From contig NC_088108.1 in the NCBI RefSeq assembly GCF_036370855.1, positions 14,159,448-14,223,447 on the forward strand: 64,000 nt of DNA, read 5' to 3'. This DNA is from Dromaius novaehollandiae (taxonomy: Eukaryota > Chordata > Aves > Casuariiformes > Dromaiidae). Numbering within the stretch: position 1 is the first letter of the stretch; every line of letters begins with the position of its first letter. Shown here piece after piece: positions 1 to 20,000 of this stretch. The position numbers were made by a program, and so were the translations under genes. The notes under the pieces are model-generated. The model saw only the letters and a program-made list of their open reading frames with translations, was not told the DNA's origin and did no database searches.

Positions 1-409
1 TGTTCATGTCTCGGTGGCCTGAAGGTGGTCTTGTTAGTCTGAGCGCTTGCAGCTCTGGGTTGGAGGTGGTGTCTTGTGAAGACCTGGGCAGTAGTTGGTT
101 TGCTGCTTGTGGAGTTGCTGCTGGCTGGAGGTGAGCTGCTTGAGGGAAGAGAGATGTTCTTGCAGCCTGTGAGTGCCGCGCTCGGGCTTTTCAGCTGGTT
201 TGTGTCATAAGCAGCTACCCTGAGCCCCTCAGTCGCACTGGGGCTGCGATGCAGGCTGAGTAGCTGTGTTGTTTGTGGAGCAGCTTGTGTGAGGCCTGGT
301 TGCCGCAAGGAAGAGGGTGCGGAGCTGCTGGAGCAGAAGTGCCCATGAAGGTTGTGCTGGAAGACCTCAAACCCAGGAGCAGTTGAGGTTGGAAGGGCTG
401 CCTGGAGGC
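1..409. other. Non-coding stretch before the CpG island, unit 1
   Basis: G/T-rich on the plus strand with many ctg and ttg trinucleotides. I see no gene, splice-site pair or repeat element in it. A phrase near 385-405 (ggttggaagggctgcctgg) faintly resembles the avian CR1 LINE tail but is too short to call. Confidence 0.5.
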
Positions 410-727
410 CCCTGAATGCGCTGGCATGCCCAAAGCGGGTCTAATTCACCCGGGCAGCTCGGGGCCTCGTGCAGTCGTGTCTCCAACTGCCCAGGTCTGG
501 GAAAAGCCGGCATTTCCTCTTTGTGGCCTTGCGGTCACTGGACTGTGTGGAGACCGTGTGGGCTGTGGTGTGCGGTTTGGCCTCTTTGCTGGTGTGATGC
601 GCGAGCTGGCACAGGGAGCAGCGAAGCCGCGAGCTCCTGGTGGAGAAGCCCCGGAGGCGCTGACGAGCCGTGCGGCTTTGCCCCGCTCGTCTCGAAGGGG
701 CCCGGCTCCCGAAGCGCCTGCGAGAGT

Positions 728-733
728 CACGTG
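728..733. promoter_or_regulatory. CACGTG E-box in the CpG island
   Basis: Sits in GTCACGTGAG, a good match to USF/MITF-TFE type sites. Present at the same offset in all units. CpG-containing, so methylation would block most such factors. Confidence 0.4.
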
Positions 734-1141
734 AGAACGGCGGCGGTTCTCCGCAGGAGATGCAGGGGCCCTGTGCGCGTGCAGCAGCTCTTTTTGAAGC
801 ACTCTGCAGCGGTCTGTGGTTATTCTGCCATCGTGTGGCTGTGAAGAGCTGGCGGGCCGAGGTTTCTGCAGGAGGTGATGAGACCGCGCTTCTCAGAGCA
901 GGAGCAGCCCAGCGCGTCGCGGGGGGTGTCGCCAGGGCTGTCGGCGCGGTTTGCGCCTTGCCGCAGGCTGCTGTGCGGGAAAGGGGCTTTGGAGCAGTTG
1001 CCCCACGGGCATGGCGGAGGAGCGCTGGGAAGGGGTCGTGGGCGTGGGGTGGTGGAGCTGGGGCGCCTGTGGGAGCTGCGTGCGCGTGTCAGGGCGCGCG
1101 GAGCGGCAGAGGAGGGCAGCAGGCTGCCCGAGCGCCGGGCG

Positions 1142-1153
1142 CCGCTAGGGCGC
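1142..1153 (+). promoter_or_regulatory. CTCF-like core motif, one per unit
   Basis: CCGCTAGGGCGC agrees with the CTCF core CCASYAGRKGGC at 10 of 12 positions. It lies in the CpG island at the same place in every unit (for example 6836-6847 in unit 2). Binding is not shown by sequence alone. Confidence 0.35.
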
Positions 1154-1332
1154 AGGTGGTGGCTGTGGCGGGGAGGGGGCTTTGCTGCACGGGGCAGTGG
1201 GACAGAGCGCCCGCCGCCTCCAGCCCCGGCGCCGCAGCCGGGCTCCGGCTGTGCCCGCACGGCTGCTGCCGAGGCCCCGAGGCCTGGCCACCGGGACGCT
1301 CTGCAGCCCCGCGTTGGAAAGCCCCATTACTT

Positions 1333-1402
1333 GGATTTAGAAATCCTAGTTAGCTGGATTTAGAAATCCTAGTTAGTTGGATTTAACCCATTCAAGAGTG
1401 CC
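1333..1402. repeat. 23-bp short tandem repeat inside each unit
   Basis: Two full 23-base copies of ggatttagaaatcctagtta plus gct/gtt start at 1333 and 1356. A third, diverged copy starting at 1379 continues into taacccattcaagagtg. It is an AT-rich patch inside the CpG island and is present in all units. Confidence 0.85.
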
Positions 1403-1741
1403 GCCGGCGCAGCCACGGGCAGTGCGGAGCACAGACAGGCCATGAGCCGCCAGCAGGGTTGTGGCGCTTCCCGGCCCTGCTGGGTGGGCACGAGTGAGTT
1501 GTGGCCGGGAGCCGGCGCGAAAGCGCGGGGAGCGAACGCGGGGCTGCGGGCCCACGGCCCTGTGTCTGGCTCTTGTAGCTGGCGTCCCCCACGCTCCCTC
1601 TCGCACGGGAGCGCTCCTGGCCAAAGCCCTCAGGCCCAGCCGTGTTGGTGCTGGAGCGCGTGCGAGTGGAGGAGCTCTGTGCCCCAAGGCCTGTGGGTGG
1701 GAGAGATCCCCCCCACCCCCGGCCCCCGCGAGCTGCTCTAA

Positions 1742-1792
1742 GGAAACACCACTCTGGCATTGCGTGAGCTCTGCCTCCTCTCTGTCTTTATT
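1742..1792 (-). terminator. Polyadenylation signal and downstream element of unit 1 gene
   Basis: AATAAA on the minus strand at 1792-1787, about 395 bases after the stop, followed 34-45 bases later by a G/T-rich AGTGGTGTTTCC (1753-1742). Spacing fits a vertebrate cleavage site near 1765-1775. The arrangement recurs at the same offset in every complete unit. The same bases form a pyrimidine tract on the other strand, so chance is possible. Confidence 0.6.
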
Positions 1793-1798
1793 GCCCAG

Positions 1799-2010
1799 GG
1801 GCCTCCTCGTGCGGGTGGCCGTGCGCAATGATGGCGCCGGCCCGAGACGGAGGAGCACGGTGCGGGCAGGCTGGGCGGAGGGACGGTGCCGTGGCCTGGT
1901 GTCGGGGCCGGCTGTGGCTTTGCGGGCACGCTCTGGAGCAGGCGCAGGCCTGGGGCAGCGGCCGCAGACTCTCTGCGCTTTGGGCAACAGAGTTGTGGGC
2001 ACGCGGGGAG
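1799..2010 (+). other. Candidate plus-strand internal exon, antisense to the gene's 3' UTR
   Basis: Acceptor ctctctgtctttattgcccag|GG (AG at 1797-1798) and donor gggag|gtgagt at 2010/2011 are both strong, bounding 212 bases with two open frames. The encoded sequences are Arg/Gly/Ala-rich and resemble nothing I know, so a non-coding transcript is as likely as a coding one. I could not find a convincing partner exon. Confidence 0.25.
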
Positions 2011-2184
2011 GTGAGTTTGTGGGCGCACGGGCCGGTGCTTCGCCAGGGCTCTGCTGGGCTCTGGCTGACGTGTCCGAGCATCGGCGTCGCTCTCGTCGTG
2101 CCTCAGTGGCCCCGGTGCCCGTCTCCCACCGCACGGCCCCAGTCTGGCTCGGTGTCGGTGTGCCTAGCCCAGCGTGCTGCCCGC

Positions 2185-2269
2185 TCAGGCCTCGTCGCTG
2201 GTCAGTGCTTCGAGCCTGCCCGTGCCAGGCGCACCTGCATCTGCAGTGTTCTCCTCCTGCGTGGTGGCA
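2185..2269 (-). CDS. Exon 4 (C-terminus and stop) of unit 1 gene
   Basis: Acceptor ggcttccatttcag|TGCC has a good pyrimidine tract. The exon completes Ser133 and encodes ATTQEENTADAG, APGTGRLEALTSDEA and TGA (2187-2185). A 3' untranslated region of roughly 415 bases follows to the polyadenylation signal. Confidence 0.72.
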
Positions 2270-4272
2270 CTGAAATGGAAGCCGGGGTTGTGTGCAGTAA
2301 CTCTCTGAAGGGCACACTGGCCAGCCCCAAGGGAAAGGGAGCAGGAGAATATGCCCTTAAGCCGCCCCAAAGCAAGCCCGCCCTTGAAAGGGGCGCAGCG
2401 TAGCCTGAGCAAGGTGTCTTCTGCTTCTGTGGTGGTGATTACCTGTCCCTGGAAGAGCTTCTGCTGAACCCTCCCAAGCCTGGTGTGGGAGGCCAGGGTG
2501 GAAGAAGGAGGCCGCCATAGAGATATTCGTCTCCGTTGCTTGTGTTGCTGCCGAACTCTAAGCTTGCAGCGCTTGGAGAAGCACACCTGGAGCAGGTACA
2601 CTGCAGGCTGGCGGGATGCTGGAAATAACGCATTAGCAGATGAACTTTGTGTTGGTGCGAGTTTGAAGAGGGCAAGGTTTGAAGGGACTTGCTCGGATGG
2701 AGCTTTTTGTCCTGGAGGCAGGACAGAACTCACCTCTCCAGAGTGGCAGCGGGTCTGGCAAGCGGATGCCTCGGCATCGTCCTCTGGAGACCTAGGAATC
2801 GTACCGAGAGGTATGGTAAAGGATTTTTAGTTGTCCTTTTGAAAGGAAGCGCGCTGCCTAGTAGGGAACTTGTGCTCTGTTCCATTTGCCAGGGAAAGCC
2901 CCTCGGAGACTAGCAGGGCTCTGCGTCTTTGGTCAGGTCTGCCGCCTTTGGAAAGGGTTAAAATGCCGGCCTGGGAGCTTTCTGGGAAGCCTTGAGAGTA
3001 CCTGTGGGCTTCAGGTAAGCACTTTGTGCAGCTGTGTAATGGCTGCCTTGCAGGTGTGCTGTTCCTTCTGCCTGGCCCTGAGAGCAGATTGGCAAGAGAG
3101 GACCCCCAAGAAGGGGGCTGGTTAGTTGGATTTAACCCATTTAGAAGTGATGCCCAGAAGTCCTTCAGCATCTGTCTTGGCAGCCTGTGGAGTGCAGCTG
3201 TAGATTTCCCTGCCCGCGCAAGTGGTGTCCGAGTCCTGGGCTCAGGTCAGCACTTGGCTGTCGCTTTCTGCCCATCTTTCTGCTGTCTGCCAGCTGTGGA
3301 GCAGGAGGGTTGGAGGGCTGTGGGTCAGGGCTAGAAGGGAGTTGCTCTGGGTGGACCCTGACTCCTCCTGCGAGAGGCTAAAGCTAGGGCTGTGCCCGCA
3401 CTGGGAGCTGCTTTGCAAGGTATCGCTTTGTAAGGGATGTGAATTTTAAACGTTACCTTTCTTTCCTGGTCTTGAGTCGGTAGTAAAGCCAAACACAAAA
3501 TGCGAAGAAGATGATCAAAACGACGAGCGTTAAAGTGTTGGCAACGATGATGACGATTTTGTGTTTTGGAGGGCTGGGGTCAGCCTCTGCAGGACCCTTG
3601 GGGGAGAGTACTGCAAAACAGTGGCCAGAGATCAGCGTTTAATAAAAACGTGCATGCTGTGGTAGGTGAAAGGTAGGAAGGGGAGGGCTGAAGCGTGAAG
3701 AGCCCAAGCGCAGCAGCACACGCGTTACGGCCGTGGGGACGTGGCGTCCCAGCACGTGCGGGATGCCACGTGACATACTAGTTTGGTGCCGTGCATTGAG
3801 AAAATGCCCCATTCTTCTCTTCTCCCCCCTGTTGCTTTTGGTGGTGTTGCTCCTCCTCTCACACCCCCTCCTTCCTGCACTGGGAGAAAGGGAAGCAGGA
3901 GCCTGCTGTCACGAGCGAGACCCGCTCTTGTGCTGGGCCGAGGCTCGGCAGATGCTTGTGTGTGCCCAGGAGGGCGGCGCAGAAGGCTGTGGAAAGCCGC
4001 GTCTCTGCAGAAGAGCTCCTCCTCAAGTGTTCTCAGCTTTGGAAGGGAGCCCCCTGTTCTGCCTGTGCCCCCAGGTGCTGGCAGGGGCCCGTGGGAGCGC
4101 TGCCTTGCCCCTGGAGATTCACCCTTAGACAATGTTAGTGGGGGAGAGGAGGTCTTGCGTCGGAGTACGTACCTTCAGACAGCACCGAAGCCTCTCTTTC
4201 CCCAGGTATGGGGACCCCGTGTACAAGGAGAGTACACAGGAGAAGGCACACCAAGGCAGAGCAGCCAGCCAT
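2185..4272 (-). CDS. Unit 1 copy: unrecognised 160-aa single-pass type I membrane protein, four exons
   Basis: The model joins 4272-4173, 3610-3457, 2586-2443 and 2269-2185 (483 bases, 160 residues plus TGA). Residues 1-19 are a signal peptide (hydrophobic LVCLLLCTLLV, likely cut after VHG). Residues 20-51 are a short Ser/Pro-rich ectodomain with no N-glycosylation site. Residues 52-77 are a transmembrane helix (IVIIVANTLTLVVLIIFF onward) containing Asn58, followed by basic RLKTRK. Residues 78-160 are a tail with DEYLYGGLL (Y108-G-G-L, a YxxL-type motif), PPWPPTP (114-120) and an acidic C-terminus. Introns are 562, 870 and 173 bp, and I saw no other convincing coding in them. The family is not recognised; role in receptor signalling or adaptor recruitment is inference from the tail. 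Topology and phase-matched splicing make chance unlikely, but expression is unproven. Confidence 0.75.
2443..2586 (-). CDS. Exon 3 (cytoplasmic tail) of unit 1 gene
   Basis: Acceptor ctgctccag|GTGTG and donor GGACAG|gtaatc, phase 2 to phase 2, 144 bases. It completes Arg85 and encodes residues 86-132, with DEYLYGGLL and PPWPPTPG. The acceptor has a weak pyrimidine tract. A competing AG 14 bases upstream would shift the frame to an early stop. A second reading frame of this exon is also open, but reads as a basic low-complexity peptide. Confidence 0.68.
3120..3149. repeat. Second copy of the gttagttggatttaaccca element
   Basis: ggttagttggatttaaccca followed by tttagaagtg matches 1373-1402 over about 28 bases with few differences, same orientation, 1.75 kb away. 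This copy sits in intron 2 of the minus-strand gene. Probably the two are relics of an internal duplication or a small dispersed element. Confidence 0.7.
3457..3610 (-). CDS. Exon 2 (ectodomain stalk and transmembrane helix) of unit 1 gene
   Basis: Acceptor ctgttttgcag|TACTC and donor GAAAG|gtaacg, entering in phase 1 and leaving in phase 2. It encodes Val34 (split codon), stalk LSPKGPAEADPSPPKHK, then the membrane helix and LYYRLKTRKE. The exon is a local AT-rich island in very GC-rich surroundings, which favours real coding constraint. Sequence identical in all eleven units by eye. Confidence 0.78.
3753..3772. promoter_or_regulatory. Twin CACGTG boxes in intron 1 of group-A units
   Basis: CACGTG at 3753-3758 and again at 3767-3772, starts 14 bases apart. 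Units 1, 3, 4, 5 and 6 have both. In units 2 and 7-11 the second is replaced by catgtg within a four-base-change block (catgtggtatcc). Confidence 0.4.
4173..4272 (-). CDS. Exon 1 (signal peptide) of unit 1 gene
   Basis: ATG at 4272-4270 in a favourable context (gacATGG: G at -3 and +4). The exon encodes 33 residues, MAGCSALVCLLLCTLLVHG followed by VPIPGEREASVLSE, and ends GAAG|gtacgt in phase 1. The frame stays open upstream to a further ATG at 4458, but the hydrophobic segment would then lie internally, so I prefer the start that puts it at the N-terminus. Untranslated exons upstream cannot be excluded. Confidence 0.72.
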
Positions 4273-5694
4273 GTCTGCTGGTACTCCCAAAGCTGTGTGC
4301 GCAAATGAGGCCTGCCCGGCAACGGGGCCCTGGGTTGCCCTGGCGGTGCTGTGACATCGCCGGCGGGCGTGCAGACCTTGTGAAGGTGTCAGGAGCTCCT
4401 CACAATGGGCCGCTGAGCGTGCGTGCGGCCTGCCAGCTCCTTCCCAGTCACCCTGCACAGGTGTGACCTCAGTGCCACCGGCTGTTTGTTGTAGGCCGTG
4501 CTTCTCCTGAGCGCCGTTTGGCGGGGAGGCGGTCTTTCACGGAGCCGGGCAGGCTGTGCAGACGAGCCTCTGCAGGGCCTGACGAAAGCTAGGGAGGATG
4601 CGCAGGAGCAGGCTGGGAGACTGTCTGGCTCCGTGCATTTCCCCACAGTAAAACAGTAGCCACAGTAAAACACTAGGCACATAAGGGAGTGCTTAAATGG
4701 GTACGTCTGCTTTAGACCCCACGACAGGCAGAGGCTTTCCTTTCCCCGAAGAAAGGGAGGTGGCTGTGACCCTCCCCTTGCTTCTTGGGCTGACACGCTG
4801 CCCCGGCAAGGCAGCGGAAGCCCCGTCTCAGCCAGGCCCGGCCCCACAGAGAGGAAGCAAAGCAAGTCTGACTGGAGCTTCCTAGGTTGTGAGGGAGCTG
4901 GTAGGCTTCGAGTCTGGGTTTGGTGGGAGCTGAAGCAGCTCGCGGGTGCTGTAGGGGGGACTGTGCTTTCTGAAGGAGCTTGTCCTTAAAACGCAGCTTC
5001 CCCTGTTCGTGTCCCACATGTGGCCCAAGCGGGAAGGAGCTGCGTGTGCCCTGTAGAGTCGGCAGTGAGTGCGGTTGTGCGCTCAGAGCCGTGTCTCTGG
5101 CAGGGGTGGGCAGAGACGGGGAGCGTCTCTGGAGAGAATGGTACCCGCAGGGCTCGAGCGTGGCCCAGAATCCCTTCTGCTGGGGTCTGAAGGCCATTTT
5201 TCCATGGGGTCCGCTGCCCTGTAAGCGGGGATTGCTAACGGAGGGCGAGTGAGAGCTACGTCGGGAGGCACCTTCACTGGTAGGAAGTCTTCTGAAGTCC
5301 GGGGAGTCTGCTGGGTGCCTTTCAAGCATGGCGTCGCTGTCCTGCACCTGTGCTTGTGGTGTTGGCAGTTAGGCAGGCTTTTGAGGAAGAGCGGTGCGTG
5401 CAGGCAGTGCTTGCTGTGCCTCAAGAGAAGTGGCAGTGGCACAGCAGAAGAGAAAGGATCAGCTGCACCACGGTGCCTGGGGCCACAGGCTGATGCTGCT
5501 TGTGCCATGGTGTGTCCGGCGGGGGCTGAGGGTCGAGCCCGTTGTCTCTGGAGCAAGGTGCAACTGAACCGGGATGTGGTTAAGGCACGCTTTTGTGGAT
5601 GTGGTGGCGTTTGGGGTGTAGGAAGTGGGTGTAGATGCATTTGTGTCCTCCTCCTGGGATCTGTGCTGCCTGGTGGTGGGCAGCGGTGGGTTAT
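4273..5694. other. 5' flank of the unit 1 gene, no recognised gene
   Basis: Lies upstream of the minus-strand ATG and must hold its promoter and any untranslated first exon. No TATA box at a plausible distance. Visible features are a CRE-like TGACATCG (plus strand, about 4351), a TGACCT half-site (about 4464) and a direct repeat cacagtaaaaca at about 4646 and 4663. Open frames on both strands show no known domain. Confidence 0.5.
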
Positions 5695-8600
5695 TGTTCA
5701 TGTCTCGGTGGCCTGAAGGTGGTCTTGTTAGTCTGAGCGCTTGCAGCTCTGGGTTGGAGGTGGTGTCTTGTGAAGACCTGGGCAGTAGTTGGTTTGCTGC
5801 TTGTGGAGTTGCTGCTGGCTGGAGGTGAGCTGCTTGAGGGAAGAGAGATGTTCTTGCAGCCTGTGAGTGCCGCGCTCGGGCTTTTCAGCTGGTTTGTGTC
5901 ATAAGCAGCTACCCTGAGCCCCTCAGTCGCACTGGGGCTGCGATGCAGGCTGAGTAGCTGTGTTGTTTGTGGAGCAGCTTGTGTGAGGCCTGGTTGCCGC
6001 AAGGAAGAGGGTGCGGAGCTGCTGGAGCAGAAGTGCCCATGAAGGTTGTGCTGGAAGACCTCAAACCCAGGAGCAGTTGAGGTTGGAAGGGCTGCCTGGA
6101 GGCCCCTGAATGCGCTGGCATGCCCAAAGCGGGTCTAATTCACCCGGGCAGCTCGGGGCCTCGTGCAGTCGTGTCTCCAACTGCCCAGGTCTGGGAAAAG
6201 CCGGCATTTCCTCTTTGTGGCCTTGCGGTCACTGGACTGTGTGGAGACCGTGTGGGCTGTGGTGTGCGGTTTGGCCTCTTTGCTGGTGTGATGCGCGAGC
6301 TGGCACAGGGAGCAGCGAAGCCGCGAGCTCCTGGTGGAGAAGCCCCGGAGGCGCTGACGAGCCGTGCGGCTTTGTCCCGCTCGTCTCGAAGGGGCCCGGC
6401 TCCCGAAGCGCCTGCGAGAGTCACGTGAGAACGGCGGCGGTTCTCCGCAGGAGATGCAGGGGCCCTGTGCGCGTGCAGCAGCTCTTTTTGAAGCACTCTG
6501 CAGCGGTCTGTGGTTATTCTGCCATCGTGTGGCTGTGAAGAGCTGGCGGGCCGAGGTTTCTGCAGGAGGTGATGAGACCGCGCTTCTCAGAGCAGGAGCA
6601 GCCCAGCGCGTCGCGGGGGGTGTCGCCAGGGCTGTCGGCGCGGTTTGCGCCTTGCCGCAGGCTGCTGTGCGGGAAAGGGGCTTTGGAGCAGTTGCCCCAC
6701 GGGCATGGCGGAGGAGCGCTGGGAAGGGGTCGTGGGCGTGGGGTGGTGGAGCTGGGGCGCCTGTGGGAGCTGCGTGCGCGTGTCAGGGCGCGCGGAGCGG
6801 CAGAGGAGGGCAGCAGGCTGCCCGAGCGCCGGGCGCCGCTAGGGCGCAGGTGGTGGCTGTGGCGGGGAGGGGGCTTTGCTGCACGGGGCAGTGGGACAGA
6901 GCGCCCGCCGCCTCCAGCCCCGGCGCCGCGGCCGGGCTCCGGCTGTGCCCGCACGGCTGCTGCCGAGGCCCCGAGGCCTGGCCACCGGGACGCTCTGCAG
7001 CCCCGCGTTGGAAAGCCCCATTACTTGGATTTAGAAATCCTAGTTAGCTGGATTTAGAAATCCTAGTTAGTTGGATTTAACCCATTCAAGAGTGCCGCCG
7101 GCGCAGCCGCGGGCAGTGCGGAGCACAGACAGGCCATGAGCCGCCAGCAGGGTTGTGGCGCTTCCCGGCCCTGCTGGGTGGGCACGAGTGAGTTGTGGCC
7201 GGGAGCCGGCGCGAAAGCGCGGGGAGCGAACGCGGGGCTGCGGGCCCACGGCCCTGTGTCTGGCTCTTGTAGCTGGCGTCCCCCACGCTCCCTCTCGCAC
7301 GGGAGCGCTCCTGGCCAAAGCCCTCAGGCCCAGCCGTGTTGGTGCTGGAGCGCGTGCGAGTGGAGGAGCTCTGTGCCCCAAGGCCTGTGGGTGGGAGAGA
7401 TCCCCCCCCACCCCCGGCCCCCGCGAGCTGCTCTAAGGAAACACCACTCTGGCATTGCGTGAGCTCTGCCTCCTCTCTGTCTTTATTGCCCAGGGGCCTC
7501 CTCGTGCGGGTGGCCGTGCGCAATGATGGCGCCGGCCCGAGACGGAGGAGCACGGTGCGGGCAGGCTGGGCGGAGGGACGGTGCCGTGGCCTGGTGTCGG
7601 GGCCGGCTGTGGCTTTGCGGGCACGCTCTGGAGCAGGCGCAGGCCTGGGGCAGCGGCCGCAGACTCTCTGCGCTTTGGGCAACAGAGTTGTGGGCACGCG
7701 GGGAGGTGAGTTTGTGGGCGCACGGGCCGGTGCTTCGCCAGGGCTCTGCTGGGCTCTGGCTGACGTGTCCGAGCATCGGCGTCGCTCTCGTCGTGCCTCA
7801 GTGGCCCCGGTGCCCGTCTCCCACCGCACGGCCCCAGTCTGGCTCGGTGTCGGTGTGCCTAGCCCAGCGTGCTGCCCGCTCAGGCCTCGTCGCTGGTCAG
7901 TGCTTCGAGCCTGCCCGTGCCAGGCGCACCTGCATCTGCAGTGTTCTCCTCCTGCGTGGTGGCACTGAAATGGAAGCCGGGGTTGTGTGCAGTAACTCTC
8001 TGAAGGGCACACTGGCCAGCCCCAAGGGAAAGGGAGCAGGAGAATATGCCCTTAAGCCGCCCCAAAGCAAGCCCGCCCTTGAAAGGGGCGCAGCGTAGCC
8101 TGAGCAAGGTGTCTTCTGCTTCTGTGGTGGTGATTACCTGTCCCTGGAAGAGCTTCTGCTGAACCCTCCCAAGCCTGGTGTGGGAGGCCAGGGTGGAAGA
8201 AGGAGGCCGCCATAGAGATATTCGTCTCCGTTGCTTGTGTTGCTGCCGAACTCTAAGCTTGCAGCGCTTGGAGAAGCACACCTGGAGCAGGTACACTGCA
8301 GGCTGGCGGGATGCTGGAAATAACGCATTAGCAGATGAACTTTGTGTTGGTGCGAGTTTGAAGAGGGGAAGGTTTGAAGGGACTTGCTCGGATGGAGCTT
8401 TTTGTCCTGGAGGCAGGACAGAACTCACTTCTCCAGAGTGGCAGCGGGTCTGGCAAGCGGATGCCTCGGCATCGTCCTCTGGAGACCTAGGAATCGTACC
8501 GAGAGGTATGGTAAAGGATTTTTAGTTGTCCTTTTGAAAGGAAGCGCGCTGCCTAGTAGGGAACTTGTGCTCTGTTCCATTTGCCAGGGAAAGCCCCTCG

Positions 8601-11403
8601 GAGACTAGCAGGGCTCTGCGTCTTTGGTCAGGTCTGCCGCCTTTGGAAAGGGTTAAAATGCTGGCCTGGGAGCTTTCTGGGAAGCCTTGAGAGTACCTGT
8701 GGGCTTCAGGTAAGCACTTTGTGCAGCTGTGTAATGGCTGCCTTGCAGGTGTGCTGTTCCTTCTGCCTGGCCCTGAGAGCAGATTGGCAAGAGAGGACCC
8801 CCAAGAAGGGGGCTGGTTAGTTGGATTTAACCCATTTAGAAGTGATGCCCAGAAGTCCTTCAGCATCTGTCTTGGCAGCCTGTGGAGTGCAGCTGTAGAT
8901 TTCCCTGCCCGCGCAAGTGGTGTCCGAGTCCTGGGCTCAGGTCAGCACTTGGCTGTCGCTTTCTGCCCATCTTTCTGCTGTCTGCCAGCTGTGGAGCAGG
9001 AGGGTTGGAGGGCTGTGGGTCAGGGCTAGAAGGGAGTTGCTCTGGGTGGACCCTGACTCCTCCTGCGAGAGGCTAAAGCTAGGGCCGTGCCCGCACTGGG
9101 AGCTGCTTTGCAAGGTATCGCTTTGTAAGGGATGTGAATTTTAAACGTTACCTTTCTTTCCTGGTCTTGAGTCGGTAGTAAAGCCAAACACAAAATGCGA
9201 AGAAGATGATCAAAACGACGAGCGTTAAAGTGTTGGCAACGATGATGACGATTTTGTGTTTTGGAGGGCTGGGGTCAGCCTCTGCAGGACCCTTGGGGGA
9301 GAGTACTGCAAAACAGTGGCCAGAGATCAGCGTTTAATAAAAACGTGCATGCTGTGGTAGGTGAAAGGTAGGAAGGGGAGGGCTGAAGCGTGAAGAGCCC
9401 AAGCACAGCAGCACACGCGTTACGGCCGTGGGGACGTGGCGTCCCAGCACGTGCGGGATGCCATGTGGTATCCTAGTTTGGTGCCGTGCATTGAGAAAAC
9501 GCCCCATTCTTCTCTTCTCCCCCCTGTTGCTTTTGGTGGTGTTGCTCCTCCTCTCACACCCCCTCCTTCCTGCACTGGGAGAAAGGGAAGCAGGAGCCTG
9601 CTGTCACGAGCGAGACCCACTCTTGTGCTGGGCCGAGGCTCGGCAGATGCTTGTGTGTGCCCAGGGCGGGCAGCGCAGGAGGGCGGCGCAGAAGGCTGTG
9701 GAAAGCCGCGTCTCTGCAGAAGAGCTCCTCCTCAAGTGTTCTCAGCTTTGGAAGGGAGCCCCCTGTTCTGCCTGTGCCCCCAGGTGCTGGCAGGGGCCCG
9801 TGGGAGCGCTGCCTTGCCCCTGGAGATTCACCCTTAGACAATGTTAGTGGGGGAGAGGAGGTCTTGCGTCGGAGTACGTACCTTCAGACAGCACCGAAGC
9901 CTCTCTTTCCCCAGGTATGGGGACCCCGTGTACAAGGAGAGTACACAGGAGAAGGCACACCAAGGCAGAGCAGCCAGCCATGTCTGCTGGTACTCCCAAA
10001 GCTGTGTGCGCAAATGAGGCCTGCCCGGCAACGGGGCCCTGGGTTGCCCTGGCGGTGCTGTGACATCGCCGGCGGGCGTGCAGACCTTGTGAAGGTGTCA
10101 GGAGCTCCTCACAATGGGCCGCTGAGCGTGCGCGCGGCCTGCCAGCTCCTTCCCAGTCACCCTGCACAGGCGTGACCTCAGTGCCACCGGCTGTTTGTTG
10201 TAGGCCGTGCTTCTCCTGAGCGCCGTTTGGCGGGGAGGCGGTCTTTCACGGAGCCGGGCAGGCTGTGCAGACGAGCCTCTGCAGGGCCTGACGAAAGCTA
10301 GGGAGGATGCGCAGGAGCAGGCTGGGAGACTGTCTGGCTCCGTGCATTTCCCCACAGTAAAACAGTAGCCACAGTAAAACACTAGGCACATAAGGGAGTG
10401 CTTAAATGGGTACGTCTGCTTTAGACCCCACGACAGGCAGAGGCTTTCCTTTCCCCGAAGAAAGGGAGGTGGCTGTGACCCTCCCCTTGCTTCTTGGGCT
10501 GACACGCTGCCCCGGCAAGGCAGCGGAAGCCCCGTCTCAGCCAGGCCCGGCCCCACAGAGAGGAAGCAAAGCAAGTCTGACTGGAGCTTCCTAGGTTGTG
10601 AGGGAGCTGGTAGGCTTCGAGTCTGGGTTTGGTGGGAGCTGAAGCAGCTCGCGGGTGCTGTAGGGGGGACTGTGCTTTCTGAAGGAGCTTGTCCTTAAAA
10701 CGCAGCTTCCCCTGTTCGTGTCCCACATGTGGCCCAAGCGGGAAGGAGCTGCGTGTGCCCTGTAGAGTCGGCAGTGAGTGCGGTTGTGCGCTCAGAGCCG
10801 TGTCTCTGGCAGGGGTGGGCAGAGACGGGGAGCGTCTCTGGAGAGAATGGTACCCGCAGGGCTCGAGCGTGGCCCAGAATCCCTTCTGCTGGGGTCTGAA
10901 GGCCATTTTTCCATGGGGTCCGCTGCCCTGTAAGCGGGGATTGCTAACGGAGGGCGAGTGAGAGCTACGTCGGGAGGCACCTTCACTGGTAGGAAGTCTT
11001 CTGAAGTCCAGGGAGTCTGCTGGGTGCCTTTCAAGCATGGCGTCGCTGTCCTGCACCTGTGCTTGTGGTGTTGGCAGTTAGGCAGGCTTTTGAGGAAGAG
11101 CGGTGCGTGCAGGCCGTGCTTGCTGTGCCTCAAGAGAAGTGGCAGTGGCACAGCAGAAGAGAAAGGATCAGCTGCACCACGGTGCCTGGGGCCACAGGCT
11201 GATGCTGCTTGTGCCATGGTGTGTCCGGCGGGGGCTGAGGGTCGAGCCCGTTGTCTCTGGAGCAAGGTGCAACTGAACCAGGATGTGGTTAAGGCACGCT
11301 TTTGTGGATGTGGTGGCGTTTGGGGTGTAGGAAGTGGGTGTAGATGCATTTGTGTCCTCCTCCTGGGATCTGTGCTGCCTGGTGGTGGGCAGCGGTGGGT
11401 TAT
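5695..11403. repeat. Macrosatellite unit 2 (5709 bp, mosaic)
   Basis: Has the 14-bp insertion (9665-9678) and a C8 run near 7407. It carries the group-B block around 9462-9500 (catgtggtatcc, aaaacgcc) but group-A bases at the neighbouring sites tgcactgg, cccctgttctg and the exon-1 donor. Private changes include caagcacagc, agtccaggg, aggccgtgctt and gaaccaggat. The mixture suggests past conversion or crossing-over. CpG island about 6095-7955. Confidence 0.97.
7880..9981 (-). CDS. Unit 2 copy of the 160-aa membrane-protein gene
   Basis: Join 9981-9882, 9305-9152, 8281-8138, 7964-7880. Predicted protein identical to the unit 1 copy. Intron 1 is 576 bp because of the 14-bp insertion. Exon-1 donor is gtacgt. 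Intron 2 has a private change at 8429 (actcac|tt instead of actcac|ct) that weakens a cryptic donor described in the findings. AATAAA at 7482-7487. Confidence 0.74.
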
Positions 11404-14400
11404 TGTTCATGTCTCGGTGGCCTGAAGGCGGTCTTGTTAGTCTGAGCGCTTGCAGCTCTGGGTTGGAGGTGGTGTCTTGTGAAGACCTGGGCAGTAGTTG
11501 GTTTGCTGCTTGTGGAGTTGCTGCTGGCTGGAGGTGAGCTGCTTGAGGGAAGAGAGATGTTCTTGCAGCCTGTGAGTGCCGCGCTCGGGCTTTTCAGCTG
11601 GTTTGTGTCATAAGCAGCTACCCTGAGCCCCTCAGTCGCACTGGGGCTGCGATGCAGGCTGAGTAGCTGTGTTGTTTGTGGAGCAGCTTGTGTGAGGCCT
11701 GGTTGCCGCAAGGAAGAGGGTGCGGAGCTGCTGGAGCAGAAGTGCCCATGAAGGTTGTGCTGGAAGACCTCAAACCCAGGAGCAGTTGAGGTTGGAAGGG
11801 CTGCCTGGAGGCCCCTGAATGCGCTGGCATGCCCAAAGCGGGTCTAATTCACCCGGGCAGCTCGGGGCCTCGTGCAGTCGTGTCTCCAACTGCCCAGGTC
11901 TGGGAAAAGCCGGCATTTCCTCTTTGTGGCCTTGCGGTCACTGGACTGTGTGGAGACCGTGTGGGCTGTGGTGTGCGGTTTGGCCTCTTTGCTGGTGTGA
12001 TGCGCGAGCTGGCACAGGGAGCAGCGAAGCCGCGAGCTCCTGGTGGAGAAGCCCCGGAGGCGCTGACGAGCCGTGCGGCTTTGCCCCGCTCGTCTCGAAG
12101 GGGCCCGGCTCCCGAAGCGCCTGCGAGAGTCACGTGAGAACGGCGGCGGTTCTCCGCAGGAGATGCAGGGGCCCTGTGCGCGTGCAGCAGCTCTTTTTGA
12201 AGCACTCTGCAGCGGTCTGTGGTTATTCTGCCATCGTGTGGCTGTGAAGAGCTGGCGGGCCGAGGTTTCTGCAGGAGGTGATGAGACCGCGCTTCTCAGA
12301 GCAGGAGCAGCCCAGCGCGTCGCGGGGGGTGTCGCCAGGGCTGTCGGCGCGGTTTGCGCCTTGCCGCAGGCTGCTGTGCGGGAAAGGGGCTTTGGAGCAG
12401 TTGCCCCACGGGCATGGCGGAGGAGCGCTGGGAAGGGGTCGTGGGCGTGGGGTGGTGGAGCTGGGGCGCCTGTGGGAGCTGCGTGCGCGTGTCAGGGCGC
12501 GCGGAGCGGCAGAGGAGGGCAGCAGGCTGCCCGAGCGCCGGGCGCCGCTAGGGCGCAGGTGGTGGCTGTGGCGGGGAGGGGGCTTTGCTGCACGGGGCAG
12601 TGGGACAGAGCGCCCGCCGCCTCCAGCCCCGGCGCCGCGGCCGGGCTCCGGCTGTGCCCGCACGGCTGCTGCCGAGGCCCCGAGGCCTGGCCACCGGGAC
12701 GCTCTGCAGCCCCGCGTTGGAAAGCCCCATTACTTGGATTTAGAAATCCTAGTTAGCTGGATTTAGAAATCCTAGTTAGTTGGATTTAACCCATTCAAGA
12801 GTGCCGCCGGCGCAGCCGCGGGCAGTGCGGAGCACAGACAGGCCATGAGCCGCCAGCAGGGTTGTGGCGCTTCCCGGCCCTGCTGGGTGGGCACGAGTGA
12901 GTTGTGGCCGGGAGCCGGCGCGAAAGCGCGGGGAGCGAACGCGGGGCTGCGGGCCCACGGCCCTGTGTCTGGCTCTTGTAGCTGGCGTCCCCCACGCTCC
13001 CTCTCGCACGGGAGCGCTCCTGGCCAAAGCCCTCAGGCCCAGCCGTGTTGGTGCTGGAGCGCGTGCGAGTGGAGGAGCTCTGTGCCCCAAGGCCTGTGGG
13101 TGGGAGAGATCCCCCCCACCCCCGGCCCCCGCGAGCTGCTCTAAGGAAACACCACTCTGGCATTGCGTGAGCTCTGCCTCCTCTCTGTCTTTATTGCCCA
13201 GGGGCCTCCTCGTGCGGGTGGCCGTGCGCAATGATGGCGCCGGCCCGAGACGGAGGAGCACGGTGCGGGCAGGCTGGGCGGAGGGACGGTGCCGTGGCCT
13301 GGTGTCGGGGCCGGCTGTGGCTTTGCGGGCACGCTCTGGAGCAGGCGCAGGCCTGGGGCAGCGGCCGCAGACTCTCTGCGCTTTGGGCAACAGAGTTGTG
13401 GGCACGCGGGGAGGTGAGTTTGTGGGCGCACGGGCCGGTGCTTCGCCAGGGCTCTGCTGGGCTCTGGCTGACGTGTCCGAGCATCGGCGTCGCTCTCGTC
13501 GTGCCTCAGTGGCCCCGGTGCCCGTCTCCCACCGCACGGCCCCAGTCTGGCTCGGTGTCGGTGTGCCTAGCCCAGCGTGCTGCCCGCTCAGGCCTCGTCG
13601 CTGGTCAGTGCTTCGAGCCTGCCCGTGCCAGGCGCACCTGCATCTGCAGTGTTCTCCTCCTGCGTGGTGGCACTGAAATGGAAGCCGGGGTTGTGTGCAG
13701 TAACTCTCTGAAGGGCACACTGGCCAGCCCCAAGGGAAAGGGAGCAGGAGAATATGCCCTTAAGCCGCCCCAAAGCAAGCCCGCCCTTGAAAGGGGCGCA
13801 GCGTAGCCTGAGCAAGGTGTCTTCTGCTTCTGTGGTGGTGATTACCTGTCCCTGGAAGAGCTTCTGCTGAACCCTCCCAAGCCTGGTGTGGGAGGCCAGG
13901 GTGGAAGAAGGAGGCCGCCATAGAGATATTCGTCTCCGTTGCTTGTGTTGCTGCCGAACTCTAAGCTTGCAGCGCTTGGAGAAGCACACCTGGAGCAGGT
14001 ACACTGCAGGCTGGCGGGATGCTGGAAATAACGCATTAGCAGATGAACTTTGTGTTGGTGCGAGTTTGAAGAGGGGAAGGTTTGAAGGGACTTGCTCGGA
14101 TGGAGCTTTTTGTCCTGGAGGCAGGACAGAACTCACCTCTCCAGAGTGGCAGCGGGTCTGGCAAGCGGATGCCTCGGCATCGTCCTCTGGAGACCTAGGA
14201 ATCGTACCGAGAGGTATGGTAAAGGATTTTTAGTTGTCCTTTTGAAAGGAAGCGCGCTGCCTAGTAGGGAACTTGTGCTCTGTTCCATTTGCCAGGGAAA
14301 GCCCCTCGGAGACTAGCAGGGCTCTGCGTCTTTGGTCAGGTCTGCCGCCTTTGGAAAGGGTTAAAATGCCGGCCTGGGAGCTTTCTGGGAAGCCTTGAGA

Positions 14401-17097
14401 GTACCTGTGGGCTTCAGGTAAGCACTTTGTGCAGCTGTGTAATGGCTGCCTTGCAGGTGTGCTGTTCCTTCTGCCTGGCCCTGAGAGCAGATTGGCAAGA
14501 GAGGACCCCCAAGAAGGGGGCTGGTTAGTTGGATTTAACCCATTTAGAAGTGATGCCCAGAAGTCCTTCAGCATCTGTCTTGGCAGCCTGTGGAGTGCAG
14601 CTGTAGATTTCCCTGCCCGCGCAAGTGGTGGCCGAGTCCTGGGCTCAGGTCAGCACTTGGCTGTCGCTTTCTGCCCATCTTTCTGCTGTCTGCCAGCTGT
14701 GGAGCAGGAGGGTTGGAGGGCTGTGGGTCAGGGCTAGAAGGGAGTTGCTCTGGGTGGACCCTGACTCCTCCTGCGAGAGGCTAAAGCTAGGGCCGTGCCC
14801 GCACTGGGAGCTGCTTTGCAAGGTATCGCTTTGTAAGGGATGTGAATTTTAAACGTTACCTTTCTTTCCTGGTCTTGAGTCGGTAGTAAAGCCAAACACA
14901 AAATGCGAAGAAGATGATCAAAACGACGAGCGTTAAAGTGTTGGCAACGATGATGACGATTTTGTGTTTTGGAGGGCTGGGGTCAGCCTCTGCAGGACCC
15001 TTGGGGGAGAGTACTGCAAAACAGTGGCCAGAGATCAGCGTTTAATAAAAACGTGCATGCTGTGGTAGGTGAAAGGAAGGAAGGGGAGGGCTGAAGCGTG
15101 AAGAGCCCAAGCGCAGCAGCACACGCGTTACGGCCGTGGGGACGTGGCGTCCCAGCACGTGCGGGATGCCACGTGACATACTAGTTTGGTGCCGTGCATT
15201 GAGAAAATGCCCCATTCTTCTCTTCTCCCCCCTGTTGCTTTTGGTGGTGTTGCTCCTCCTCTCACACCCCCTCCTTCCTGCACTGGGAGAAAGGGAAGCA
15301 GGAGCCTGCTGTCACGAGCGAGACCCACTCTTGTGCTGGGCCGAGGCTCGGCAGATGCTTGTGTGTGCCCAGGAGGGCGGCGCAGAAGGCTGTGGAAAGC
15401 CGCGTCTCTGCAGAAGAGCTCCTCCTCAAGTGTTCTCAGCTTTGGAAGGGAGCCCCCTGTTCTGCCTGTGCCCCCAGGTGCTGGCAGGGGCCCGTGGGAG
15501 CGCTGCCTTGCCCCTGGAGATTCACCCTTAGACAATGTTAGTGGGGGAGAGGAGGTCTTGCGTCGGAGTACGTACCTTCAGACAGCACCGAAGCCTCTCT
15601 TTCCCCAGGTATGGGGACCCCGTGTACAAGGAGAGTACACAGGAGAAGGCACACCAAGGCAGAGCAGCCAGCCATGTCTGCTGGTACTCCCAAAGCTGTG
15701 TGCGCAAATGAGGCCTGCCCGGCAACGGGGCCCTGGGTTGCCCTGGCGGTGCTGTGACATCGCCGGCGGGCGTGCAGACCTTGTGAAGGTGTCAGGAGCT
15801 CCTCACAATGGGCCGCTGAGCGTGCGCGCGGCCTGCCAGCTCCTTCCCAGTCACCCTGCACAGGCGTGACCTCAGTGCCACCGGCTGTTTGTTGTAGGCC
15901 GTGCTTCTCCTGAGCGCCGTTTGGCGGGGAGGCGGTCTTTCACGGAGCCGGGCAGGCTGTGCAGACGAGCCTCTGCAGGGCCTGACGAAAGCTAGGGAGG
16001 ATGCGCAGGAGCAGGCTGGGAGACTGTCTGGCTCCGTGCATTTCCCCACAGTAAAACAGTAGCCACAGTAAAACACTAGGCACATAAGGGAGTGCTTAAA
16101 TGGGTACGTCTGCTTTAGACCCCACGACAGGCAGAGGCTTTCCTTTCCCCGAAGAAAGGGAGGTGGCTGTGACCCTCCCCTTGCTTCTTGGGCTGACACG
16201 CTGCCCCGGCAAGGCAGCGGAAGCCCCGTCTCAGCCAGGCCCGGCCCCACAGAGAGGAAGCAAAGCAAGTCTGACTGGAGCTTCCTAGGTTGTGAGGGAG
16301 CTGGTAGGCTTCGAGTCTGGGTTTGGTGGGAGCTGAAGCAGCTCGCGGGTGCTGTAGGGGGGACTGTGCTTTCTGAAGGAGCTTGTCCTTAAAACGCAGC
16401 TTCCCCTGTTTGTGTCCCACATGTGGCCCAAGCGGGAAGGAGCTGCGTGTGCCCTGTAGAGTCGGCAGTGAGTGCGGTTGTGCGCTCAGAGCCGTGTCTC
16501 TGGCAGGGGTGGGCAGAGACGGGGAGCGTCTCTGGAGAGAATGGTACCCGCAGGGCTCGAGCGTGGCCCAGAATCCCTTCTGCTGGGGTCTGAAGGCCAT
16601 TTTTCCATGGGGTCCGCTGCCCTGTAAGCGGGGATTGCTAACGGAGGGCGAGTGAGAGCTACGTCGGGAGGCACCTTCACTGGTAGGAAGTCTTCTGAAG
16701 TCCGGGGAGTCTGCTGGGTGCCTTTCAAGCATGGCGTCGCTGTCCTGCACCTGTGCTTGTGGTGTTGGCAGTTAGGCAGGCTTTTGAGGAAGAGCGGTGC
16801 GTGCAGGCAGTGCTTGCTGTGCCTCAAGAGAAGTGGCAGTGGCACAGCAGAAGAGAAAGGATCAGCTGCACCACGGTGCCTGGGGCCACAGGCTGATGCT
16901 GCTTGTGCCATGGTGTGTCCGGCGGGGGCTGAGGGTCGAGCCCGTTGTCTCTGGAGCAAGGTGCAACTGAACCGGGATGTGGTTAAGGCACGCTTTTGTG
17001 GATGTGGTGGCGTTTGGGGTGTAGGAAGTGGGTGTAGATGCATTTGTGTCCTCCTCCTGGGATCTGTGCTGCCTGGTGGTGGGCAGCGGTGGGTTAT
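11404..17097. repeat. Macrosatellite unit 3 (5694 bp, group A)
   Basis: No 14-bp insertion. Shares agtggtggccgag (about 14630) and aaaggaaggaagg (about 15073) with unit 4, its closest relative. Differs from unit 4 at ggaaaagccggc versus ggaaaagctggc and gctttgccccgc versus gctttgtcccgc. CpG island about 11803-13663. Confidence 0.97.
13588..15675 (-). CDS. Unit 3 copy of the 160-aa membrane-protein gene
   Basis: Join 15675-15576, 15013-14860, 13989-13846, 13672-13588. Same predicted protein as unit 1; short intron 1 (562 bp); intact gtacgt donor. AATAAA at 13190-13195. Confidence 0.74.
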
Positions 17098-20000
17098 TGT
17101 TCATGTCTCGGTGGCCTGAAGGCGGTCTTGTTAGTCTGAGCGCTTGCAGCTCTGGGTTGGAGGTGGTGTCTTGTGAAGACCTGGGCAGTAGTTGGTTTGC
17201 TGCTTGTGGAGTTGCTGCTGGCTGGAGGTGAGCTGCTTGAGGGAAGAGAGATGTTCTTGCAGCCTGTGAGTGCCGCGCTCGGGCTTTTCAGCTGGTTTGT
17301 GTCATAAGCAGCTACCCTGAGCCCCTCAGTCGCACTGGGGCTGCGATGCAGGCTGAGTAGCTGTGTTGTTTGTGGAGCAGCTTGTGTGAGGCCTGGTTGC
17401 CGCAAGGAAGAGGGTGCGGAGCTGCTGGAGCAGAAGTGCCCATGAAGGTTGTGCTGGAAGACCTCAAACCCAGGAGCAGTTGAGGTTGGAAGGGCTGCCT
17501 GGAGGCCCCTGAATGCGCTGGCATGCCCAAAGCGGGTCTAATTCACCCGGGCAGCTCGGGGCCTCGTGCAGTCGTGTCTCCAACTGCCCAGGTCTGGGAA
17601 AAGCTGGCATTTCCTCTTTGTGGCCTTGCGGTCACTGGACTGTGTGGAGACCGTGTGGGCTGTGGTGTGCGGTTTGGCCTCTTTGCTGGTGTGATGCGCG
17701 AGCTGGCACAGGGAGCAGCGAAGCCGCGAGCTCCTGGTGGAGAAGCCCCGGAGGCGCTGACGAGCCGTGCGGCTTTGTCCCGCTCGTCTCGAAGGGGCCC
17801 GGCTCCCGAAGCGCCTGCGAGAGTCACGTGAGAACGGCGGCGGTTCTCCGCAGGAGATGCAGGGGCCCTGTGCGCGTGCAGCAGCTCTTTTTGAAGCACT
17901 CTGCAGCGGTCTGTGGTTATTCTGCCATCGTGTGGCTGTGAAGAGCTGGCGGGCCGAGGTTTCTGCAGGAGGTGATGAGACCGCGCTTCTCAGAGCAGGA
18001 GCAGCCCAGCGCGTCGCGGGGGGTGTCGCCAGGGCTGTCGGCGCGGTTTGCGCCTTGCCGCAGGCTGCTGTGCGGGAAAGGGGCTTTGGAGCAGTTGCCC
18101 CACGGGCATGGCGGAGGAGCGCTGGGAAGGGGTCGTGGGCGTGGGGTGGTGGAGCTGGGGCGCCTGTGGGAGCTGCGTGCGCGTGTCAGGGCGCGCGGAG
18201 CGGCAGAGGAGGGCAGCAGGCTGCCCGAGCGCCGGGCGCCGCTAGGGCGCAGGTGGTGGCTGTGGCGGGGAGGGGGCTTTGCTGCACGGGGCAGTGGGAC
18301 AGAGCGCCCGCCGCCTCCAGCCCCGGCGCCGCGGCCGGGCTCCGGCTGTGCCCGCACGGCTGCTGCCGAGGCCCCGAGGCCTGGCCACCGGGACGCTCTG
18401 CAGCCCCGCGTTGGAAAGCCCCATTACTTGGATTTAGAAATCCTAGTTAGCTGGATTTAGAAATCCTAGTTAGTTGGATTTAACCCATTCAAGAGTGCCG
18501 CCGGCGCAGCCGCGGGCAGTGCGGAGCACAGACAGGCCATGAGCCGCCAGCAGGGTTGTGGCGCTTCCCGGCCCTGCTGGGTGGGCACGAGTGAGTTGTG
18601 GCCGGGAGCCGGCGCGAAAGCGCGGGGAGCGAACGCGGGGCTGCGGGCCCACGGCCCTGTGTCTGGCTCTTGTAGCTGGCGTCCCCCACGCTCCCTCTCG
18701 CACGGGAGCGCTCCTGGCCAAAGCCCTCAGGCCCAGCCGTGTTGGTGCTGGAGCGCGTGCGAGTGGAGGAGCTCTGTGCCCCAAGGCCTGTGGGTGGGAG
18801 AGATCCCCCCCACCCCCGGCCCCCGCGAGCTGCTCTAAGGAAACACCACTCTGGCATTGCGTGAGCTCTGCCTCCTCTCTGTCTTTATTGCCCAGGGGCC
18901 TCCTCGTGCGGGTGGCCGTGCGCAATGATGGCGCCGGCCCGAGACGGAGGAGCACGGTGCGGGCAGGCTGGGCGGAGGGACGGTGCCGTGGCCTGGTGTC
19001 GGGGCCGGCTGTGGCTTTGCGGGCACGCTCTGGAGCAGGCGCAGGCCTGGGGCAGCGGCCGCAGACTCTCTGCGCTTTGGGCAACAGAGTTGTGGGCACG
19101 CGGGGAGGTGAGTTTGTGGGCGCACGGGCCGGTGCTTCGCCAGGGCTCTGCTGGGCTCTGGCTGACGTGTCCGAGCATCGGCGTCGCTCTCGTCGTGCCT
19201 CAGTGGCCCCGGTGCCCGTCTCCCACCGCACGGCCCCAGTCTGGCTCGGTGTCGGTGTGCCTAGCCCAGCGTGCTGCCCGCTCAGGCCTCGTCGCTGGTC
19301 AGTGCTTCGAGCCTGCCCGTGCCAGGCGCACCTGCATCTGCAGTGTTCTCCTCCTGCGTGGTGGCACTGAAATGGAAGCCGGGGTTGTGTGCAGTAACTC
19401 TCTGAAGGGCACACTGGCCAGCCCCAAGGGAAAGGGAGCAGGAGAATATGCCCTTAAGCCGCCCCAAAGCAAGCCCGCCCTTGAAAGGGGCGCAGCGTAG
19501 CCTGAGCAAGGTGTCTTCTGCTTCTGTGGTGGTGATTACCTGTCCCTGGAAGAGCTTCTGCTGAACCCTCCCAAGCCTGGTGTGGGAGGCCAGGGTGGAA
19601 GAAGGAGGCCGCCATAGAGATATTCGTCTCCGTTGCTTGTGTTGCTGCCGAACTCTAAGCTTGCAGCGCTTGGAGAAGCACACCTGGAGCAGGTACACTG
19701 CAGGCTGGCGGGATGCTGGAAATAACGCATTAGCAGATGAACTTTGTGTTGGTGCGAGTTTGAAGAGGGGAAGGTTTGAAGGGACTTGCTCGGATGGAGC
19801 TTTTTGTCCTGGAGGCAGGACAGAACTCACCTCTCCAGAGTGGCAGCGGGTCTGGCAAGCGGATGCCTCGGCATCGTCCTCTGGAGACCTAGGAATCGTA
19901 CCGAGAGGTATGGTAAAGGATTTTTAGTTGTCCTTTTGAAAGGAAGCGCGCTGCCTAGTAGGGAACTTGTGCTCTGTTCCATTTGCCAGGGAAAGCCCCT

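Follow-up and report, generated by a model that had tools for sequence, protein, structure and literature searches.

The 64,000-nucleotide stretch of emu (Dromaius novaehollandiae) DNA analysed here (hereafter, the window; C11:14159448-14223447, contig NC_088108.1) lies within a tandem array of nearly identical 5.7-kb units, each of which probably carries a complete gene, split into four exons, whose product would be a type I single-pass membrane protein; the same gene is found in two further macrosatellites, and gene conversion combined with selection probably shaped the three versions of the protein that these arrays encode. The four exons, all on the minus strand, are real sequence features, and each unit of the array in the window (array 1) contains a complete, intact reading frame.

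In the first unit, the exons at 4272-4173, 3610-3457, 2586-2443 and 2269-2185 of the window (minus strand) join into an open frame of 483 nt that contains no internal stop, ends with TGA and translates into a product of 160 residues. The introns are in phases 1, 2 and 2 and are bounded by GT-AG throughout: among the 14 copies of array 1, the donor of intron 1 is GTACGT in 10 copies and GTACAT in 4, those of introns 2 and 3 are GTAACG and GTAATC in all 14, and the acceptors are GCAG, CCAG and TCAG, respectively, again in 14 of 14 each. An AATAAA polyadenylation signal, on the same strand, follows 392 nt after the stop codon (1787..1792 in unit 1); it is present in all copies examined in the three arrays (14/14, 9/9 and 1/1, respectively).

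The predicted product has a simple layout. Exon 1 (4173..4272, phase 1 end) encodes the start methionine, the signal peptide (MAGCSALVCLLLCTLLVHG; best 19-residue hydropathy mean of the hydrophobic N-terminus, 2.24) and the beginning of the stalk, and exon 2 (3457..3610, phase 2 end) the remainder of the stalk, a transmembrane (TM) helix that begins around residue 52 (mean hydropathy 2.89) and the basic stop-transfer KTRKER. Exon 3 (2443..2586, phase 2 end) adds a Cys-Ser juxtamembrane stretch and the serine-rich tail, in which the YGGL and PPTP motifs lie, and exon 4 (2185..2269) the end of the tail and the stop codon. The predicted ectodomain is a stalk of approximately 30 residues without cysteine. 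A preliminary description, made from the letters of the window alone, had proposed this architecture, including the three phase-consistent junctions, the polyadenylation signal and the 5.7-kb repeat that carries the gene, and the calculations bear it out in each of these respects.

Array 1 spans C11:14155264-14234507 and contains 14 gene copies, with 11 complete sets of exons in the window. From exon 4 to exon 1, all on the minus strand, these occupy positions 2185-4272 (the unit 1 copy described above), 7880..9981, 13588..15675, 19282..21369, 24976..27077, 30684..32785, 36392..38493, 42100..44201, 47809..49910, 53517..55618 and 59225..61326. The 11 complete units in the window are 5,694-5,709 bp long, with the differences in length caused in part by a 14-bp indel in intron 1, and are 99.3-99.8% identical to unit 1, so that, being head-to-tail, kilobase-scale and nearly identical, they make array 1 a macrosatellite. 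The proteins encoded by the 14 copies are identical, and two exon variants were detected, each in a single copy and both synonymous. The array is a GC-rich block (62%) embedded in sequence with 42-46% GC on a 28-Mb contig. The flanks do not match the array sequence, and inspection by eye of the portions listed recognised no gene in the 35 kb to the left (C11:14120000-14155263) or the 29 kb to the right (14234508-14263447).

Two more arrays were found in searches of the genome (1.47 Gb, 271 contigs), the globins of which point to a bird. For beta-globin, the exon-2 sequence has its best PDB matches in the hemoglobins 2zfb and 3wtg, which are entries for parakeet and emu; for alpha-A, 3wtg comes first after six engineered double chains of human hemoglobin, whose scores reflect their two copies. 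The globin matches are located on contigs 1, 14 and 18, in line with the chromosomal distribution of the chicken genes. A 201-base DNA query that takes in the TM exon retrieved a second set of copies with 89% identity and a period of about 12 kb (array 2), and a protein search retrieved a third, on the opposite strand, with a TM exon that is 71% identical and a period of 4,023 bp (array 3; C11:16.755-16.925 Mb). The genome-wide exon counts are lower bounds. Candidate TM exons number at least 106, all of which were scored and proved free of stops; array 1 accounts for 14 of them, array 3 for 43 and array 2 for 49 (30 on C11, 8 on C107 and 11 on C232). At least 106 array copies of the tail exon (exon 3) were detected, of which 105 have no stop and one has a TGA, and at least 107 array copies of exon 1, all without stops; the only other matches, one for the tail exon and two for exon 1, are at chance level (E 2.2, 3.1 and 5.1). 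Complete four-exon copies of arrays 2 and 3 were read in the stretches that were fetched: eight of the nine from array 2 are intact and one carries a TGA, and all four from array 3 are intact, one of them with a single amino-acid change.

Arrays 2 and 3 differ from array 1 in unit length and surroundings, and the exon structure, intron phases, GT-AG sites and polyadenylation signal are common to all three. The three array versions of the protein that were compared are each 160 residues long and agree in residues 1-29, in the juxtamembrane stretch YYRLKTRKERC, in YGGL and PPTP and over most of exon 4. Only two exon indels separate the arrays, of one codon (3 bp) each, in exons 2 and 3, whereas most of the intron indels are not multiples of three (6 of 7 between arrays 1 and 2, 3 of 4 between arrays 1 and 3, 5 of 6 between arrays 2 and 3). 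The gene model goes beyond chance because it is intact in two further, diverged arrays, and the presence of the same gene on different arrays suggests that the gene itself was kept, not only the repeat.

The divergence between the arrays is concentrated in the exons. For exons 2 and 3, divergence is 12-18% when array 1 is compared with either of the others and 7-10% when arrays 2 and 3 are compared, against 3.4-9.3% for the three introns; the excess is strong for array 1 against array 2 (P 1e-6) and array 3 (P 3e-11). The synonymous sites of these exons diverge by 27, 24 and 14.5% in the three pairs, compared with 5.9, 4.6 and 5.1% in the introns (Fisher P 7e-8, 6e-8 and 0.005), and their nonsynonymous divergence is 0.07-0.17, compared with 0.05-0.06 for introns. 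In 50-bp windows, divergence is highest over the segment that codes for the TM helix and over the tail exon, and some windows in the 5' region, in exon 1 and in the introns show none at all. Identical tracts of 187-203 bp between arrays are longer than in shuffled alignments (P 0.0015 or less), although rate variation, which is absent from the shuffle model, can also yield long identical tracts. The relationships among the arrays appear to change along the gene as well: sites that group arrays 2 and 3 amount to 32 of 52 in exons 2-3 and to 9 of 37 when exon 1 and the 500 bp preceding the ATG are pooled with intron 3 and the first half of intron 1, a difference with P 6e-4 for regions that were picked after looking.

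The best account of this pattern appears to be the one that applies to the L/M opsins, in which conversion homogenises the copies and selection refuses it in those exons that make the products differ. Unequal exchange and conversion would keep the copies nearly identical within each of the three separate macrosatellites (5.7, 12 and 4.0 kb units; about 106 copies on one contig and parts of two others), as their identity indicates. Between arrays, conversion is likely to have homogenised the 5' region and much of the introns, the cause proposed for a pattern that is itself plain in the alignments, and selection would have kept the TM and tail exons different, so producing three protein versions. 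A bolder formulation is that the three linked macrosatellites are 'alleles in bulk', about a hundred genes of an orphan bird family with homogenised promoters and introns and with TM and cytoplasmic exons kept apart; this we regard as a tentative proposal with a somewhat less than even chance of being correct.

Alternatively, in a gene that does code for protein, the divergence of exons 2-3 could reflect accelerated evolution under positive selection rather than resistance to conversion. The nonsynonymous divergence of these exons, which exceeds that of the introns, is what such acceleration would produce, but the synonymous sites of the same exons diverge still more, and the dN/dS ratios for the whole gene between arrays are 0.36, 0.63 and 0.44. 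Furthermore, the long identical tracts and the regional differences in grouping fit conversion, and the same combination has been described for gibbon L/M opsins (PMC3213168). Positive selection as the cause of the exon divergence thus seems unlikely.

Selection at the level of the protein is moderately supported by the comparison of the arrays. In simulations, the replacements in the TM segment avoid polar residues and stops in each of the three pairs (P 0.03, 0.01 and 0.03). Together with the identical exon structure in three arrays, the tests on the TM segment and the reading frame make a good, if not conclusive, case for a coding gene.

Several observations weigh against the interpretation of the arrays as selected coding genes with conversion-resistant exons. 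The deficit of nonsynonymous changes is weak, being significant for one pair in simulations with the noncoding substitution spectrum (P 0.02) but not for the others (P 0.55 and 0.11), and a frame would stay open by chance after that many changes with P 0.4-0.6 per pair. The copies within each array are homogenised, so that the open copies are not independent, and exon diversity within array 1 is not significantly below that of non-exon sequence (2 of 483 vs 26 of 2517 columns, P 0.30). When arrays 2 and 3 are compared, exons exceed introns in divergence only weakly (P 0.04), and further, smaller divergence peaks occur at either end of intron 2 and where exon 4 ends. Between arrays 1 and 3, the 3' untranslated region (UTR) and the sequence downstream of it have a divergence of about 10%, which is higher than that of the introns, and therefore, the introns are not a clean neutral yardstick; relative to the 3' UTR and downstream sequence, the exon excess has P 0.01 (0.002 for synonymous sites). 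Finally, genome searches with exons 1, 2 and 3 revealed no single-copy parent of the arrays, although a diverged parent could be missed by such searches.

Some of these points are also what would be expected if the arrays were the remains, whether transcribed or silent, of a once functional gene, with a protein that is no longer needed and frames that are intact through recent homogenisation from a single intact founder per array. The near-identity of the units within an array, by which the 106 open exons are not independent, the stop in one array 2 copy, the non-significant replacement deficit in two of the three pairs and the chance of an open frame are all compatible with such decay. It would, however, require three founders that are each intact even though exons 2-3 of array 1 have diverged by 12-18% from those of the other arrays, with exon indels of one codon only and with TM hydrophobicity, GT-AG sites and the polyadenylation signal all kept, and so we consider it improbable.

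Another explanation is a role of the unit at the level of DNA or of a noncoding transcript, for instance, as a chromatin boundary or an array of CpG islands, with the reading frame as a passenger. Each of the 11 complete units indeed contains a CpG-rich stretch (594..2094 in unit 1, not assigned to either strand, with approximate boundaries from 300-bp steps in that unit), with 70% GC and an observed/expected (o/e) CpG ratio of 0.80-0.81, against 0.50-0.51 in the rest of the unit, and the arrays closely resemble one another in the 5' region and in some portions of the introns. This explanation nevertheless appears highly improbable, given that the frame, the phases, the signal peptide and the TM segment are kept through the most divergent exons whereas the introns have tolerated indels of 47, 57 and 319 bp between arrays, and that no Rfam family was detected at Rfam's thresholds in positions 1-11403 of the window. 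The CpG-rich stretch begins in the 3' UTR, passes the polyadenylation signal and extends to some 2 kb upstream of the ATG of the following copy. The window has a CpG o/e of 0.60, and single units of arrays 2 and 3 have values of 0.59 and 0.64, respectively, compared with 0.17-0.19 in the flanks of array 1; this contrast counts in favour of the gene interpretation as well and fits low germline methylation or GC-biased conversion.

The position of the CpG-rich stretch bears on the completeness of the gene model, too. The stretch could possibly serve as a promoter, either for the next copy or for a different transcript. A candidate promoter or 5' leader, the 500-bp segment that precedes the ATG (4273..4772, minus strand), differs between arrays 1 and 3 at 15 of 500 positions (3%), and simple patterns for a TATA box, a CCAAT box and a GC box find none in the 600 bp before the ATG; a GGCAAC/GTTGCC pair at -67 and -51 was considered as an X-box and rejected, as it does not fit the X-box pattern. 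With the CpG-rich stretch lying about 2 kb upstream of the following ATG in each complete unit, there is an appreciable chance, albeit somewhat below even, that the gene is real but the model incomplete, with a noncoding first exon in that stretch or with further coding exons. The ATG with its signal peptide, the stop codon and AATAAA would, on the other hand, make a complete coding part. The indels between units and between arrays in intron 1 are not multiples of three, and hence there is no conserved coding exon in the indel-bearing parts of this intron; on these grounds, a hidden immunoglobulin or other coding exon in intron 1 is not supported. Separately, the RNA fold of the exon 1 region (window 4150-4290, minus strand) is more stable than those of dinucleotide shuffles (z -3.4).

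The preliminary description recognised no family for the product, and database searches likewise reach none: the best Pfam match is Amastin, below the cut-off (E 0.046), the best match in the Protein Data Bank (PDB) has E 0.26, and a search of viral contigs with the TM exon found no relative, although records close to this genome may be excluded from that collection. Nor did a scan of the longest open frames reveal a better gene on the other strand. Unit 1 contains 81 open frames of 50 residues or more on the two strands, and the 16 longest, which were scanned against Pfam, reach no cut-off; one of them yields two sub-cut-off matches, AAA_lid_14 (E 0.018) and PDE6_gamma (E 0.024). No match to the HIT family was obtained for the product or for these 16 frames. 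Of the 81 frames, 51 and 61 have matches in the two other arrays, on both strands, and because so many frames match in GC-rich DNA, conservation of an open frame says little by itself. A search of open-licence papers (PMC7397634, PMC7341801 and PMC9974502 included) turned up no description of this gene, nor of arrays whose differences lie mainly in the exons.

The features most widely shared among the three protein versions, namely, the signal peptide and the juxtamembrane stretch with its cysteine and, in the tail, YGGL and the proline-rich motif, give some hints of function. Binding of a large ligand by the ectodomain is unlikely because the latter consists of only about 30 residues without cysteine. 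With low confidence, we would propose a transmembrane adaptor-like or trafficking protein that acts through the TM helix and the tyrosine and proline motifs of its cytoplasmic part. A still more speculative suggestion, also made with low confidence, is that a high dosage of the protein is needed, perhaps in the germ line, given the amplification and the testis bias of multicopy genes reported for chicken dot chromosomes (PMC9974502).

The 12-kb unit of array 2 is a chimera of the membrane-protein gene and the 5' exons of NUP62, the product of which matches Nup62 in the PDB (E 1e-11). The first coding exon of NUP62 is listed in 49 full copies and one partial copy, and the frame around it is open for 156-429 residues in the full copies. 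Matches to the Nsp1_C domain were found at a single site (C11:14743641-14744479), which lies beyond the left edge of array 2 (approximately C11:14747271), so that the 3' half of NUP62 is attached to the first unit alone; on C11, the array extends to around 15113258. This macrosatellite (C11:14747271-15113258, C107 and C232; loci L015-L026 and L038) thus holds the promoter side and 5' exons of NUP62 in about 50 copies and adjoins the only NUP62 3' half found. NUP62 was considered as the original home of the membrane-protein gene, but the edges of array 2 do not place the latter in unique sequence. A short acidic open frame (MDMDIDSISSVSSLQSLAKLLSDAQEEDDDD...) without a Pfam match runs opposite to the NUP62 strand at L038:1701-1877 and in the 12-kb unit in L019. 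Among the minor features of the array 1 unit are short repeats of TGGATTTAGAAATCCTAGTTAGC and the related TTAGTTGGATTTAACCCATT, which occur at several positions (window 1332-1385 and, as judged by eye, about 3119-3142).

Macrosatellites are usually read as structural DNA, and here three array designs share one gene and differ most in its coding exons. If the interpretation of these arrays as selected coding genes is correct, they constitute a natural experiment on concerted evolution versus selection over a hundred gene copies and add an undescribed family of membrane proteins that repeat masking could hide from gene finders. The sequence comparisons support the reading of the array as a coding macrosatellite, with a complete gene for a small membrane protein. 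The expectation in the preliminary description that this would be a new example of such a repeat held in that the units contain a complete gene, which is kept on two other arrays, but there are bird precedents in HINT1W and OR29G. Coding macrosatellites are already known, birds included, and what appears to be new is a protein without a family that is carried on three macrosatellite designs with exon-biased divergence.

Among adaptors, LAT, PAG, SIT, DAP10 and DAP12 are characterised by a very short ectodomain, a single TM segment, a juxtamembrane cysteine and tyrosine and proline motifs in the tail. The predicted product resembles them in all these features but has no ITAM or YxxM motif, no charged residue in the core of the TM segment and no family match. 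YGGL is the only tyrosine motif of the tail proper that is kept in all three versions, with YYRL located at the membrane. Membership in the TRAP/DAP adaptors was rejected, given the absence of ITAM and YxxM and of any sequence match to an adaptor family.

The closest parallel to array 1 in the parts of the literature that were available is HINT1W, whose 5,648-bp unit is present 52 times in tandem on the chicken W chromosome and for which GC-biased conversion has been suggested (PMC9974502). The likeness extends to a complete gene per unit in a bird, a nearly equal unit length, a GC-rich array and more than one cluster; unlike HINT1W, the arrays described here lie on C11, a contig that also carries NUP62, and on two other contigs, are of three unit types and encode a membrane protein that has no known family and does not match HIT. 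OR29G, with 386 intact copies, belongs to the testis-expressed multicopy genes in the pericentromeric heterochromatin of chicken dot chromosomes, and multicopy genes on seven of ten such chromosomes show a testis bias (PMC9974502). Genes of this type are similar in that a bird genome carries tens to hundreds of intact copies, but they reside in pericentromeric heterochromatin whereas array 1 is a GC-rich block within GC-poorer sequence of its contig.

In the human genome, D4Z4, RS447 and CT47 have been studied as macrosatellites (PMC3599962). They share with the present arrays the kilobase-sized units that hold a gene in long arrays and differ in the proteins involved and in that, here, three paralogous arrays diverge most in the exons. 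The proteins encoded by D4Z4 and RS447 are DUX4 and USP17.

With regard to the pattern of divergence, the most instructive comparison is with the primate L/M opsins. In gibbons, the divergence of the opsin exons, synonymous sites included, exceeds that of the introns, and conversion tracts are reported to be mostly intronic (PMC3213168). The arrays described here are alike in that dN is not above dS and in that exons diverge more than introns, including at synonymous sites, strongly so for array 1 against the other two and weakly for arrays 2 and 3. Intron-biased conversion tracts were reported for the opsins, and a possible counterpart here is the identical tracts that exceed those in shuffles, with rate variation outside the model. 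The two systems are not homologous, and a pair or a few opsin genes contrast with about 106 copies in three arrays.

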